Below are positions 25,243 to 33,940 of a stretch of DNA of 34,519 nucleotides, piece after piece (positions within the stretch are counted from its first letter, which is position 1; each line of letters begins with the position of its first letter). The notes under the pieces were generated by a model, which saw only the letters and a list, made by a program, of their open reading frames with translations, ran no database searches and was not told where the DNA came from. The position numbers and the translations under genes were made by a program. This DNA comes from Candidatus Fusobacterium pullicola (GTDB lineage: Bacteria > Fusobacteriota > Fusobacteriia > Fusobacteriales > Fusobacteriaceae). The stretch spans positions 1 through 34,519 of the forward strand of contig JAHLFN010000055.1 of NCBI GenBank assembly GCA_018883725.1. Direction: 5' to 3'.

Positions 25243-26529
25243 TTATTTATGTAAGGATTTGATAAGGTTATACTCTTCAGGAGTATCTATATCTAAAAAT
25301 TCAAATTTATTAGGAAACTCTACAAAGGAGATAAGAGGTGAATTTTTAATAACCTTTTTTCCTCCTACATCACCAGAGAGGTTTAGTAACTCTCTTTTTT
25401 TTTCTTTTGGAAAAAATACTGGGGAGAATCTTTCCCCTTCAGCTCTAGGAATAGTGATATATTTATATTTTAGAAAGTTGAAGTATATTTTTAAAAGAGT
25501 ATCTCTAGTTAAAAGTGGCTGATCTCCAGTGAAAAAAGCAATCCCTTCTCCAGTAGCATTACTAATTCCTAATTTTATACTCTCACTCTGTCCCAGGTGA
25601 GCTAATTTATTTTCTAAATATTGATAGTTATATTTTTTAGATAAATTTTCTACCCACTCCTCTCTCCCACAAACATATATATTATAGAATGGAATATATG
25701 AGAGTTTTTCAAAAGTATAATCCAGTAAGGTGGTATCTTGATATGGTAGTTTTAATTTATTTTCTCCCATTCTACGTGAATATCCAGATGCCATTACAAT
25801 AGCATCTGTAGGAGAATATTTAAAAAATGTACCTTCTTTTATTGAACCTAATATTAGCTTATAGGATAGATTTTTTTTGTATAAAAGGTTACAAACTTCT
25901 AAAGCAGTTGAAAATCTATTTAGATAATTATCTCCATCAATTCCATTAAAGAAGATATATTTATTATTAGAAGATGAATTTTTGAAAAAATCTCCCTTAA
26001 AAATATAATCAACTAAAAATTCTTTATCTACAATCATATTGATAAAATTTTTAAATTTTTCTTTAAAAATTTCAAATCGATGAATATTGGATTCGTTTAA
26101 TTTTAAATTCAAGATATCTAAATTAACTACTCCAATTACCTTATTAGAAAAAGATGGAATACAAGGTTCTGTATCATTCCAAGCTTTTATCTTTAGTTCT
26201 TTAGCTCCATCTCCTTCAATTAAAATATAGTCAAATTTTTCCTTTAAATCAAATATTTTTTCATAGGAAAGAGAGTATAATTTACTATTTTCTATTCTTT
26301 CTCCATAGATAATAATATTTTTATTATTTCCCTTAATTTTACTATCTGATGTTATTAATTCTTCAAAATTATCAGGATGTGGAACATAAATTTTAGTAGT
26401 TGTAGTAACAAGAACTCTACCTAGAGAGGCAAGTTCTCTAGCTAAAGAAAACATTAAAGAGGTTTTCCCACCAGCCCCTGTAATAGTTATAATGTCCCCT
26501 TTTTTTATATCAAATTCTTTTAGTAACAT
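25243..26529 (-). CDS. YqeC-like P-loop protein fused to a MobA/YgfJ-like nucleotidyltransferase
   Basis: A 428-residue two-domain protein. Residues ~1-235 match the YqeC group of selenium-dependent molybdenum hydroxylase accessory proteins: P-loop TGAGGKTSLM (17-26), VTTTTKIYVP (41-50) and LIEGDGAKELKIKAW (103-117). Residues ~240-428 are a MobA/MocA-like NTP transferase: DAIVMASGYSRRMGENKLKL, then GDQPLL and the late SGDVGGKKVI. The two activities are often separate neighbouring genes; here they form one polypeptide. Family knowledge links both to maturation of molybdenum hydroxylases such as xanthine dehydrogenase. No such enzyme and no molybdopterin gene are nearby. A GAGGTG ribosome site precedes the ATG. 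Confidence 0.87.
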   Translation of the reverse strand: MLLKEFDIKKGDIITITGAGGKTSLMFSLARELASLGRVLVTTTTKIYVPHPDNFEELITSDSKIKGNNKNIIIYGERIENSKLYSLSYEKIFDLKEKFDYILIEGDGAKELKIKAWNDTEPCIPSFSNKVIGVVNLDILNLKLNESNIHRFEIFKEKFKNFINMIVDKEFLVDYIFKGDFFKNSSSNNKYIFFNGIDGDNYLNRFSTALEVCNLLYKKNLSYKLILGSIKEGTFFKYSPTDAIVMASGYSRRMGENKLKLPYQDTTLLDYTFEKLSYIPFYNIYVCGREEWVENLSKKYNYQYLENKLAHLGQSESIKLGISNATGEGIAFFTGDQPLLTRDTLLKIYFNFLKYKYITIPRAEGERFSPVFFPKEKKRELLNLSGDVGGKKVIKNSPLISFVEFPNKFEFLDIDTPEEYNLIKSLHK

Positions 26530-29984: not shown

Positions 29985-30090
29985 TATAATAGAGTCTTAA
30001 CTTCTATCCATCTTTCTGGAATTAGCACCACACTTCTTAAGCAGGTTGCTGAAACGTCTTTGGGCCAGTCCCTCAGTTTCTCTTGATGGT
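29951..30090 (-). ncRNA. SAM-I (S-box) riboswitch with expression platform
   Basis: Read on the minus strand from 30090, the leader shows the SAM-I core: the P1 5' strand ACCATCAAGAGA, then GAGGGACTGGCCC, CAGCAACC and GTGGTGCTAATTCC, closed by GATGGAT (30006-30012). An intrinsic terminator (29951-29984) follows. The riboswitch binds S-adenosylmethionine and then favours termination, reducing metNIQQ expression. The terminator loop contains CTTGATGGT, the exact complement of the P1 5' strand. Confidence 0.95.
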
Positions 30091-30109
30091 AAATTTATTT
30101 GTTAGAGCT

Positions 30110-30176: not shown

Positions 30177-31109
30177 TTATTTTTTGGGGATAGATGGAGT
30201 AATAAAATCTTTATATTTTTGTAAACGAGTTTTATATTCTTCGGTTTTTTTAGCTTCTATCAATTTTCCTTCATTTGTTTTAATATCATTCATGTGAATG
30301 AATTTACCAGAAAGAGTATTATGTGCATGTTCTAGTTGTTCTTCGGGAAAGATAAATTTTAATTTTCCTTCAGCAATCTCAAAACTTCCTTCTATTCCAC
30401 AAAGACAGCAGATAGCACTTCCATCATTTTTGATATAAAAGTTTCTACTGTGGCAATGTGGACATATTCCTAAATCACCTTTGAAAGTTGCATTTTCGAT
30501 ATCTCTTGCTGCTAAAGTTAAATTTCTTCCAATTTCTTGAACTCTTTTGATTTTATCATCTTCTAATATAATACCTTTAGACCAAGGGAAAACTTCGTTA
30601 TCTATTGTTTTCCACATAGGAGTTAATGAAAGCATTTCACAATCACATTGAACCCTAGTAGTCCAATCAGATCCTCCAATACCAATATAAGAGATAACTT
30701 TGTTTTTTAAATTTTTTTCATCAGGAGCAATTCCACCGTTTTCTTCAGCTATCTTTTTGGCCACAATATTATTACCTCTATCCATTCTAGGTCCGAAACG
30801 ATCTACTACTGTTCTAAATATACCAGCTGCTCCTTTTTCGAAGATAGGAACAGTAAAGATAATTCCATCTGCATCTAACATTTTTCCTTTTAACCATTCG
30901 AAATCATCTTTCAAAGAGCAAATATTTCCTTTTCCTGTCATAAGGGCTTTTACACAAGCTATACATCCCGTACAGTGTTTTATATTTAAGTCTAAAAGTC
31001 TTATAAATTCTACTTCTGCTCCTAGTTTTTTAGCCTCCATAAGAGCTTCTTTACACATTGCATCGTTATTTCCATTTTTTGTTCCTGCTGATATTCCTAA
31101 TATTTTCAT
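30177..31109 (-). CDS. Iron-sulfur flavoprotein (NADPH-dependent FMN reductase family) with C-terminal Zn ribbon
   Basis: A 310-residue cytosolic protein. The N-terminal flavodoxin-like domain begins MKILGISAGTKNGNN, an FMN phosphate loop. A compact cysteine motif, C46-x2-C49-x2-C52-x11-C64, matches iron-sulfur flavoproteins that carry a [4Fe-4S] cluster. TVPIFEKGAAGIFRTVVDRFG lies near the flavin. A zinc ribbon (C216PHC219 and C234CLC237) and a Lys-rich tail follow the flavin domain. Such proteins transfer electrons to quinones, oxygen or aromatic acceptors. It lies 35 bases downstream of the secreted-protein gene and is probably co-transcribed with it. No clear terminator separates it from the met promoter. 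Confidence 0.85.
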   Translation of the reverse strand: MKILGISAGTKNGNNDAMCKEALMEAKKLGAEVEFIRLLDLNIKHCTGCIACVKALMTGKGNICSLKDDFEWLKGKMLDADGIIFTVPIFEKGAAGIFRTVVDRFGPRMDRGNNIVAKKIAEENGGIAPDEKNLKNKVISYIGIGGSDWTTRVQCDCEMLSLTPMWKTIDNEVFPWSKGIILEDDKIKRVQEIGRNLTLAARDIENATFKGDLGICPHCHSRNFYIKNDGSAICCLCGIEGSFEIAEGKLKFIFPEEQLEHAHNTLSGKFIHMNDIKTNEGKLIEAKKTEEYKTRLQKYKDFITPSIPKK

Positions 31110-31144
31110 TTTATCTCATCCTTTCTATATATTAGATTTTAGTA

Positions 31145-32029
31145 TTAATTAGTAAAATGGTACTCAGTTCCATCTCTTAAAAAGTCTCTTTCAGCATGTT
31201 CTTCTAAAAATATACTAACTATATCTTTATAAGGTGTTAAATAAGGGAAAGTACTATTAGTAGTTGCCCAAGTAGGTTTTTTTACTTTAGGTGGATTTTC
31301 AACCCAGTTTTTTCTCCAAGCATTAGAATCTCTATACCAAAACTCTATTACTCTCACAAAAGGAGAAGTTTTAGGTTCGATAGCTTTGTAAGAGAAACAT
31401 CTAAGTAGATCTTTTTCTTTAATAATTTCTGGTATAAAATCATTATAAAACCATTTTTCTCCCTCACTTTCTTTTACACCTTCAGGATATTTTAAAGCCA
31501 CGACAAATCTATAAAATGGTCCATCATCACTAGTAAGTCCATAGCCTTTAAAGTCATCATCAATTCTTCTATTTACAAAAACAAAGGCAGCAGGATGAGC
31601 ATTTTTATTTTTTTGAGTTCCCCAATCAGCTCTCTTTGTTGAATCTGTTGGATTTCCAATCATCTCATTATAACCTTCAACCCATACTTCACTCATAGCT
31701 GTACCTTGATTTAATTCATCTTCCATAGAAAATGGATCCTCTCTCCAATAGTGTTCAGTCATTCTCCAGTTATATGCTCCATATTTTTCTCCACCTTGAG
31801 GTATAGGAAGAGCTCTATAAGTAGAGTATCCAGCTAATATAGGACCATTGATATTAACAGTATCTTGTGCATGATATTTGAAAAGCCATCTATTTGCTTT
31901 TGGTAGATCATTAATATCTGTTAAATTTAAAATTAAATAACTTCTTTTAAGTTGAGAAGCTAAAATAGGATTAGTAAGCACTAAAGAACAAAGTAATCCT
32001 AAAATAAAAATAATTCCTTTTCTTTTCAC
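31145..32029 (-). CDS. Secreted protein of unknown function with two EthD/Dabb-like repeats
   Basis: A 294-residue exported protein. GTG 32029 is the start because AGGAG (32036-32040) lies 6 bases before it; an in-frame ATG 30 bases upstream would put this site inside the gene and has none of its own. The signal peptide is KGIIFILGLLCSLVLTNPILA, cut near residue 25. By eye, two similar halves occur: ~30-76 (RWLFKYHAQDT ... GPILAGYSTYRALP) and ~173-232 (KWFYNDFIPEI ... LLRCFSYKAIEP). Each fits a dimeric alpha-beta barrel unit of the EthD/Dabb type, a fold used by monooxygenase-like and heme- or aromatic-binding proteins. The protein is rich in Trp and Tyr. No enzyme activity can be named. It sits between a MarR gene and a flavoprotein gene. 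Confidence 0.72.
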   Translation of the reverse strand: MKRKGIIFILGLLCSLVLTNPILASQLKRSYLILNLTDINDLPKANRWLFKYHAQDTVNINGPILAGYSTYRALPIPQGGEKYGAYNWRMTEHYWREDPFSMEDELNQGTAMSEVWVEGYNEMIGNPTDSTKRADWGTQKNKNAHPAAFVFVNRRIDDDFKGYGLTSDDGPFYRFVVALKYPEGVKESEGEKWFYNDFIPEIIKEKDLLRCFSYKAIEPKTSPFVRVIEFWYRDSNAWRKNWVENPPKVKKPTWATTNSTFPYLTPYKDIVSIFLEEHAERDFLRDGTEYHFTN

Positions 32030-32046
32030 TAAATACTCCTTTTTTA

Positions 32047-32060
32047 TGTGGTTAAACACA
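32047..32060. promoter_or_regulatory. Predicted MarR operator 2, in front of the secreted-protein gene
   Basis: TGTGGTTAAACACA is a 14-bp palindrome with one mismatched pair, nearly the same as the operator at 32544-32555. It begins 6 bases after the predicted -10 of the secreted-protein gene and ends 7 bases before its ribosome site, so binding would block transcription. Confidence 0.6.
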
Positions 32061-32066
32061 TTTTTT

Positions 32067-32096
32067 ATTAAAAAAATAGAGTAAAATTACTCTAAA
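32067..32096 (-). promoter_or_regulatory. Weak predicted promoter of the secreted protein/flavoprotein pair
   Basis: On the minus strand TTTAGA (32091-32096), an 18-base spacer and TTTAAT (32067-32072). It overlaps the marR terminator. The match to consensus is modest, but its spacing to the operator copies that seen at marR. Confidence 0.4.
32070..32094 (-). terminator. Short intrinsic terminator at the end of marR
   Basis: A 7-bp stem (32077-32083 with 32088-32094) with a 4-base loop and seven T on the minus strand (32070-32076). The marR stop codon (32087-32089) is inside the hairpin. It should separate marR from the following gene at least partly. Confidence 0.6.
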
Positions 32097-32521
32097 TTTT
32101 TTATAATTTTATCTAAAACAGCTGAAAAAATATTTTTTTCCTCTTCAGATACATTTTTAAAAGCTGTATCCAGATTAGTTTTAACAGTTTTTACAACATC
32201 TTTTTGTACCTTTTTTCCTAACTCTGATAGAAAAATTAAGTTAATTCTTTTATCAAGAGGAGAGGTCTCTTTTATAATTAAATCTTTTTTGATAAGAGCA
32301 TCGATTAATCTAGACACGCAGGTATGATCTTTTCCAATTAAAGTCCCAATTTGGTTCTGTGTAAGTCCATCATTTTCTAGTAAAAAATTGATAACTCCCC
32401 ATTGCTCAGGAGTGATAGTAAAATCATTCTCTTTCAATTTTTTACCAAAATTTAATGTCGTTAATCTAGAAGCTTTATCTAATTTAAAACCTATAGATTT
32501 TTTAAAATTATAATCACTCAT
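32087..32521 (-). CDS. MarR-family transcriptional regulator
   Basis: A 144-residue winged-helix regulator. The start at 32521 (MSDYNFKK) follows GGGAG at 5-6 bases and is preferred to an in-frame ATG 18 bases upstream. The DNA-binding part is TPEQWGVINFLLENDGLTQ, then QIGTLIGKDHTCVSRLIDAL (recognition helix) and the wing with SPLDKRINLIFLSELGKK, the MarR DxR signature. Helical ends should form the dimer. MarR proteins usually repress their own operon and release DNA on binding aromatic compounds or on oxidation. There is no Cys in the first 50 residues; the single Cys lies in the recognition helix (HTCVSR). Two matching palindromes flank the gene. Confidence 0.92.
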   Translation of the reverse strand: MSDYNFKKSIGFKLDKASRLTTLNFGKKLKENDFTITPEQWGVINFLLENDGLTQNQIGTLIGKDHTCVSRLIDALIKKDLIIKETSPLDKRINLIFLSELGKKVQKDVVKTVKTNLDTAFKNVSEEEKNIFSAVLDKIIKNLE

Positions 32522-32543
32522 AATTTCTCCCTTTTCCATTTAA

Positions 32544-32555
32544 GTGTTTAAACAC
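32544..32555. promoter_or_regulatory. Predicted MarR operator 1, autoregulatory
   Basis: GTGTTTAAACAC is a perfect 12-bp palindrome, starting 6 bases after the marR -10 box and lying over the likely transcription start. Confidence 0.7.
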
Positions 32556-32561
32556 ATATTC

Positions 32562-32590
32562 TTTATATCATATATTATAAATTTTTTCAA
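32562..32590 (-). promoter_or_regulatory. Predicted promoter of marR
   Basis: On the minus strand TTGAAA (32585-32590), a 17-base spacer and TATAAA (32562-32567) preceded by TGA. The MATE stop is only 19 bases upstream of the -35, and no terminator for MATE is evident. Confidence 0.7.
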
Positions 32591-32608
32591 GTAGTTATTA
32601 AAATAAAA

Positions 32609-33940
32609 TTATCTATTTCTCTTAAAAAGAAGTAGTATATCTTTTCTAAGTAGAATACAACTAAAAGTAAAACACATAAAATCTGCTGTAGGCAAAGATA
32701 GCCATACTCCAGTTTCCTTTAAGAATATAGGAAGGATAATTATAGCTATGATAAAAAATACGATACTTCTTAAAGAAGAGATAAGATTTGAAAGTTTTGT
32801 CATTCCTTTAGATTGTAAATATGAGATATTAATAAAATTTGCCCCTTGAAAAATAATAGCACTAGAAAATAAAATTAATCCATGAGAGGCTAAATTTATA
32901 AGTGGAGCATCATTATTAAAGAGTTTAACTAAATTTTTACCATATGAGATAACTCCTAATAATATTGAAGAGGATATAATAAAAGTAACTATATGTCCAA
33001 TTTTAAAAGTTTTTCTCACTCTTTCAAGCTCTTTTAGTCCATAGTTATAGCTAATAATAGGTTGTATTCCTTGAGAGAGTCCAGTGAATAAACATCTAAA
33101 AACATAGCAAATATATGCAACAATACAGTAAGCTGATACTCCAATTTCTCCTAAAAATTTCATAAATGAAATATTAAACAAAGCGTTAGTAATCGCAGCA
33201 GTGAACTCTATAGTAAAAGATGGAAATCCTATAGAGATAATATTTTTGAGAAGAGTTAGTTTTAATTTTTCAAATTTATATTTAAAATTACAATCTATTC
33301 TGAAAAAATATCTTACTAAGAATAAGAAAGATAAAAATTGACCAATAGCAGTAGCAAAGGCTCCACCAAAGACTCCCCAATGGAAAACAATTATAAAAAG
33401 CCAATCTAAAAATACATTAGTAACAGCTCCTATAACCATAGAGATAAAAGCATAAACAGGGGATTTATCATTTCTAACTACAGCATTCAAACTATTAGAT
33501 AGCATCAAAAATATCATTGCAATAACACAGGTATACAGATATATTTTAACTTGATTAGCTAACAATTCACTTGAACCAAGTAAAGAAATTAGTTTATTTC
33601 CACTAAGTAAAACTACTGATAATATAAAAATATATGAAAAAATATTCAAAGTAATTATGTGTGAAAAACAGAGATTTTTAAATTTAATATTTTTAGGACG
33701 TAAAGATATCAGGGTAGCTCCACCTGTTCCAATAAGCAAGCTAACTGCAATTCCTAAATTAATAATGGGATAAGCAATATTGACAGCAGCAAGGCCATCA
33801 GCTCCAACTCCTTGTCCAATAAAAATTCCATCTACAATAGCGTATAAAGCATTAACCATCATCCCTGTAACAGAGGGAATTGAGAAATTAAAAAACAGTT
33901 TTGAGATAGAATCTCTTTTTAAATCAATAGCTTTAAACAT
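32609..33940 (-). CDS. MATE-family multidrug/organic cation efflux transporter
   Basis: A 443-residue membrane protein with about 12 hydrophobic segments. The start at 33940 (MFKAIDLKRDSISK) follows AGGAGG; an in-frame ATG 21 bases upstream has no such site. The N-terminus has the MATE pattern IPSVTGMMVNALYAIVDGIFIGQGVGADGLAAVNIAYPI and GTGGATLIS, repeated in the second half around GLSQGIQPIISYNYG. The family exports drugs or toxic organic cations using Na+ or H+. It is upstream of marR in the same direction, suggesting a link to a chemical stress response. The predicted MarR operator is not found in front of it. Confidence 0.93.
   Translation of the reverse strand: MFKAIDLKRDSISKLFFNFSIPSVTGMMVNALYAIVDGIFIGQGVGADGLAAVNIAYPIINLGIAVSLLIGTGGATLISLRPKNIKFKNLCFSHIITLNIFSYIFILSVVLLSGNKLISLLGSSELLANQVKIYLYTCVIAMIFLMLSNSLNAVVRNDKSPVYAFISMVIGAVTNVFLDWLFIIVFHWGVFGGAFATAIGQFLSFLFLVRYFFRIDCNFKYKFEKLKLTLLKNIISIGFPSFTIEFTAAITNALFNISFMKFLGEIGVSAYCIVAYICYVFRCLFTGLSQGIQPIISYNYGLKELERVRKTFKIGHIVTFIISSSILLGVISYGKNLVKLFNNDAPLINLASHGLILFSSAIIFQGANFINISYLQSKGMTKLSNLISSLRSIVFFIIAIIILPIFLKETGVWLSLPTADFMCFTFSCILLRKDILLLFKRNR

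Follow-up and report, generated by a model that had tools for sequence, protein, structure and literature searches.

A putative flavonoid-response cassette of a MarR regulator, a predicted exported chalcone isomerase relative and a flavone reductase in Fusobacterium

Flavonifractor and Eubacterium are given most of the credit for the conversion of dietary flavonoids in the gut; Fusobacterium is a genus of disease interest. The first steps of gut flavone and flavonol metabolism are carried out by flavone reductase (FLR) and chalcone isomerase (CHI) (PMC7862272). The function and the ligand-bound structures of the FLR of Flavonifractor plautii have been described together with the assay of 11 further putative FLRs, all 11 of which converted apigenin; the enzyme uses flavin mononucleotide (FMN) and does not use NAD(P)H directly, with the electron donor left open (PMC7862272). 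The CHI of Eubacterium ramulus consists of two ferredoxin-like domains and is related to chlorite dismutase and the stress protein SP1, with His33 as the acid-base residue and Asp36 as its partner, and the direction reported in vitro is from chalcone to flavanone (PMC9694015). We compared these systems with a stretch of 34,519 nucleotides (contig JAHLFN010000055.1, hereafter the window) from the genome of a Fusobacterium that stands near F. mortiferum; the CHI relative of the window is 99% identical at the protein level to that of F. mortiferum strain An814. A first-pass annotation had read four open reading frames (ORFs) of the window as a chemical-stress module that matched no named system. 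According to our analysis, three of these genes, marR, chi and flr, probably form a flavonoid-response cassette under its own repressor, with the conversion or detoxification of flavonoids as the favored role, and the two enzyme genes match two steps of the known gut pathway, those of FLR and CHI (PMC7862272).

All four ORFs are present on the minus strand (33961-30177), and the Pfam scan assigned their products to MatE, MarR, Chalcone_N and FMN_red. The annotation of the first two as a MATE transporter and a MarR regulator was borne out by both Pfam and NCBIfam, while NCBIfam held no model for either enzyme.

The flavoprotein (30177..31109, minus strand; 310 aa, predicted cytoplasmic, no signal peptide) is by homology an FMN-dependent flavone/flavonol reductase, expected to reduce the C2=C3 bond of flavones. 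Its residues 1-310 aligned in phmmer with residues 1-309 of F. plautii FLR (PDB 7d38, E 5e-142), 198/309 of them identical (64% over the full length), and this end-to-end alignment to PDB 7d38-7d3b takes in the C-terminal tail needed for activity. The FMN and substrate residues are shared, including all four of G106, W149, H271 and I275, mutations of which strongly lower or abolish activity (PMC7862272). The Cys4 motif (Cys46/49/52/64, CX2CX2CX11C) and the zinc-ribbon-like cysteines that the first-pass annotation had pointed out are present and are likewise conserved in F. plautii FLR, for which no iron-sulfur cluster is mentioned (PMC7862272). A [4Fe-4S] cluster on the Cys4 motif is a guess that could bear on the electron donor; such a cluster on residues 46-64, if present, might explain why electrons are not taken up from NAD(P)H.

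The secreted protein is encoded by chi (31145..32029, minus strand; 294 aa), with the likely start at the second GTG (about 32029), which is preceded by the ribosome site AAGGAG; the ORF can be extended to 32059. Residues 39-289 aligned in phmmer with chain positions 9-267 of E. ramulus CHI (PDB 3zph/4d06, E 5.8e-33), a profile of five Fusobacterium homologs matched the same enzyme with E 6.3e-33, and the Pfam family Chalcone_N (PF18232) was hit with 61 bits (cut-off 25). The alignment covers the mature length of the protein, which fits the earlier reading of two alpha/beta halves of EthD/Dabb-like type. AlphaFold2 on the CHI relative alone gave an unusable model (mean pLDDT, the predicted local distance difference test score, of 39), and the two-domain fold rests on homology to the solved structures. 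The codon of the predicted catalytic histidine (31871..31873, minus strand) specifies His63 in long-ORF numbering, equivalent to His33 of E. ramulus CHI (PMC9694015), and D66 and Y78 correspond to Asp36 and Tyr48. The equivalents of His73 and Trp75 are also kept, and of the A-ring residues those of Thr71 (T101) and Gln101 (Q118) are retained while position 69 is Arg.

Unlike E. ramulus CHI, the Fusobacterium protein carries a predicted signal peptide (31958..32029, minus strand; VKRKG-IIFILGLLCSLVL-TNPILA before SQ), as had been proposed in the first-pass annotation. The N-terminus shows a positive n-region, a hydrophobic core and a small residue at -1, and four Fusobacterium homologs reach a maximum 13-residue hydropathy of 2.8-3.4, two clostridial CHIs one of 0.8-1.3. 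The N-terminal extension is common to all Fusobacterium homologs, whose mature parts are 78-90% identical, and is absent from the clostridial CHIs, those of Acetoanaerobium noterae and Clostridioides difficile beginning directly at the first domain. The CHI relative is therefore predicted to be sent outside the cytoplasm by a Sec-type signal. No exported chalcone isomerase was reported in the literature searched. An exported relative of the CHI family, which weakly matches EthD, was also observed on a Novosphingobium plasmid (L065:8001-8828), where it carries a twin-arginine-like signal; its gene overlaps that of a pyrroloquinoline quinone (PQQ)-dependent dehydrogenase, with a TonB receptor gene nearby, and represents a second exported branch in an aerobic setting.

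Several features of the CHI relative weigh against our reading. Its identity to clostridial and characterized CHIs is only 28-33% (28% to the E. ramulus enzyme), whereas clostridial CHIs are 47-60% identical among themselves. Around 13 residues of the catalytic domain are missing before Gln101, in a gap that falls between positions 76 and 100 and whose placement varies between alignments; the gap bears on helices alpha3-5, which are intact in the active branch A. The pocket positions Gln69 (Arg here), Phe50, Phe41 and Phe135 are changed. Moreover, distant homologs of branch B, whose catalytic domain is rebuilt, have no CHI activity (PMC8361940), and for this reason we regard catalytic activity of the Fusobacterium protein as likely but not assured. 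A further substitution, Pro for Asp79, is also present in active CHIs (PMC8361940).

The same low identity, missing segment and changed pocket, together with the inactive branch-B homologs and the PQQ dehydrogenase beside the exported Novosphingobium relative, would suit a different explanation, namely that the exported protein is a family relative that catalyzes a different reaction or serves in binding, carried inside a flavonoid operon. We consider this possible, although the retained equivalents of His33, Asp36, Tyr48, Thr71, His73, Trp75 and Gln101 and the score against Chalcone_N speak for a chalcone isomerase, as does the fact that the window protein is closer to the clostridial CHIs than the Novosphingobium relative is.

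In F. plautii the locus tags of the genes for FLR and CHI follow one another, and the two genes also stand close to each other in A. noterae and C. difficile; this pairing ties both to flavonoids. The Fusobacterium pair resembles those of C. difficile (L064) and A. noterae (L063) in that the two genes are adjacent or nearly so; the latter differ in a CHI without signal peptide, in the lack of an adjacent MarR gene and in other neighbors (DUF1097; a gene resembling that of phloretin hydrolase, Phy). Compared with F. plautii, which shares the adjacent CHI gene, flr of Fusobacterium stands under a MarR regulator with its own operators, and neither Phy nor a flavanone-cleaving reductase (Fcr) was found in the genus. 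The proposed action of a regulated gene set on an aromatic compound is retained, with flavonoids indicated in place of the quinone, bile acid, indole or heme stress that had been suggested. In A. noterae, the phloretin-hydrolase-like protein, FLR and CHI (L063:4466-8834) make up a candidate flavonoid degradation cluster of an environmental anaerobe.

FLR has been noted in Fusobacteria before by sequence (PMC7862272), and a survey of metagenome-assembled genomes names Fusobacterium for FLR and CHI and not for Fcr or Phy (PMC8398226). The F. mortiferum CHI and Fusobacterium FLR found there by BLAST are very probably the same genes as ours; gene order, export, regulator and operators are not described in the section of the survey that we consulted. 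What appears to be new here is the export of CHI, the dedicated two-operator MarR operon, the inheritance of the unit at two chromosomal sites and the fact that the later steps of the pathway seem to be missing.

The order MarR-CHI-FLR is kept in five Fusobacterium genomes (the window and L007-L010), so that this part of the gene order expected by the first-pass annotation stands, while the four-gene order including MATE does not. In two of the five (the window and L007) the cassette lies between the MATE gene and metN; in the other three it occupies a second chromosomal place, flanked by a peptidase-like gene on one side and a further conserved gene on the other, with no MATE gene adjacent. 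Both places also exist as intact empty sites, with MATE followed directly by metN in congener G009 (locus L109) and the flanking genes of the second place side by side in congener G001. Chalcone_N was detected in 6/98 genomes of the phylum, all of them Fusobacterium; in a contig scan, CHI relatives turned up only in F. mortiferum An814, and none was seen in viral contigs. The ratio dN/dS is about 0.06-0.15 for marR, chi and flr, with synonymous changes far exceeding replacements. On the basis of these comparisons, the unit consists of the three genes marR-chi-flr, inherited as a cassette at two chromosomal places. The MATE gene (32609..33940, minus strand) is judged to be a core gene outside the unit, found with or without the cassette, because orthologs occur in 12/12 congeners irrespective of CHI status (83% identical in G009, which lacks chi), because it is not adjacent in the other clade and because no operator palindrome lies at this gene. 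In congener L007 (9732-11584), a different MarR/MATE pair in opposite orientation separates the cassette from MATE.

The MarR-family regulator (32087..32521, minus strand; Pfam MarR_2, E 3e-12) likely starts at the ATG at 32521 (MSDYN...), a start that is backed by relatives. Its probable promoter, TTGAAA-17-TATAAA (32562..32590, minus strand; hexamer scan), has the same arrangement in the window and in L007, and a weaker version occurs in L008-L010. In all species the palindrome ATGTGKTTAAMCACAT closely follows the -10 box of this promoter and recurs in front of chi, in the midst of intergenic sequence that has diverged between them. In the window, the two copies are the putative operators O1 (32544..32556, minus strand; TGTGTTTAAACAC), upstream of marR, and O2 (32047..32060, minus strand; TGTGTTTAACCACA), upstream of chi. 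Among 12 whole genomes scanned, the pattern TGTGKTTAAMCAC occurred at exactly two sites, upstream of marR and of chi, in all six genomes with CHI and in 0/6 without it, and a reversed control pattern gave 0-1 hits per genome. This restriction places the regulator with the unit and MATE outside it, and MarR very probably controls only marR-chi-flr as a local repressor, with a palindromic operator at its own predicted promoter as in an autoregulated MarR operon.

Homology, key residues, export signal, operators and inheritance are read from the sequence, and beyond these we infer ligand, reaction direction, location and purpose. A MarR dimer would bind the two copies and release both operators when a flavonoid enters the cell. 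The cytoplasmic FLR would then reduce flavones and flavonols at C2=C3 to flavanones and flavanonols, and the exported CHI relative might act through His63 in the periplasm or outside the cell, where it would either cyclize reactive chalcones to flavanones or act on flavanones by ring opening and on flavanonols by ring contraction. The outcome would be conversion, as detoxification and possibly also as an electron sink, and not carbon use; if so, in some gut bacteria the transformation of flavonoids would be protective, not nutritional. More tentatively, the cassette may work as a shield in two compartments, in which the exported CHI neutralizes chalcones outside and the cytoplasmic FLR neutralizes flavones inside, both yielding flavanones, under a flavonoid-sensing MarR, a two-site regulon and a portable cassette. 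In that case the protein would be, to our knowledge, the first bacterial chalcone isomerase found to be exported.

The main rival to these arrangements is a linear route, in which FLR produces flavanonols in the cytoplasm (taxifolin from quercetin) and the exported CHI, after their exit, irreversibly converts them to auronols (alphitonin). The E. ramulus enzyme converts taxifolin in this way (PMC9694015) and the pairing of FLR with CHI extends over more than one phylum; still, we hold the route to be somewhat doubtful, as there is no dedicated exporter, MATE being unlinked, and as F. mortiferum An814 (L006) keeps CHI without FLR. In this strain, flr has been cleanly lost (L006:6000-6400) between chi and the metN S-adenosylmethionine (SAM) riboswitch, with marR, chi and both operators retained, which counts against the three-gene conversion cassette as well. 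An814 is at the same time a natural FLR-less strain for comparison, and the cassette itself is a compact two-operator regulon.

It is unlikely that flavonoids are broken down completely as a source of carbon and energy, in the manner of F. plautii but with later-step enzymes that we did not recognize, even though FLR and CHI open that pathway (PMC7862272). Phy was not found in the genus with PF18089, a weak search given that the A. noterae protein itself scored 22.1 bits against a cut-off of 22.7, and the A. noterae Phy-like protein as query gave no match in the genus, in a search without positive control. Characterized Fcr and enoate reductases are larger, multidomain proteins. The frames that encode Old Yellow Enzyme-family proteins in the genus do not exceed 363 aa, so that no full-size Fcr was found, Fcr being judged by family size only; none of these proteins is restricted to genomes with CHI. 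The weak positive control for Phy and the size criterion for Fcr detract from our reading, since conversion is favored over full catabolism because phloretin hydrolase and a full-size Fcr were not found; the naming of Fusobacterium for FLR and CHI and not for Fcr and Phy in the survey (PMC8398226) points the same way. FMN_bind ene-reductases were considered as chalcone reductases acting outside the cell and rejected, as all 12 congeners carry them whether or not the cassette is present.

That the four genes form a chemical-stress module which includes drug export is highly improbable: the MATE gene does lie 70 bases upstream in the same direction in this species, but it adjoins metN without the cassette in G009, the cassette lacks it in three genomes, and no operator accompanies it.

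The right-hand border of the unit is formed by a SAM riboswitch of the downstream metNIQ genes (30005..30092, minus strand; Rfam RF00162, 67.5 bits), which precedes metN, a permease gene and two metQ-like genes. The metQ-like genes are adjoined in all mortiferum-type loci by a gene for a 428-aa protein (25243-26529 in the window), which by eye resembles a YqeC-type selenium-hydroxylase accessory domain fused to a MobA-like nucleotidyltransferase.

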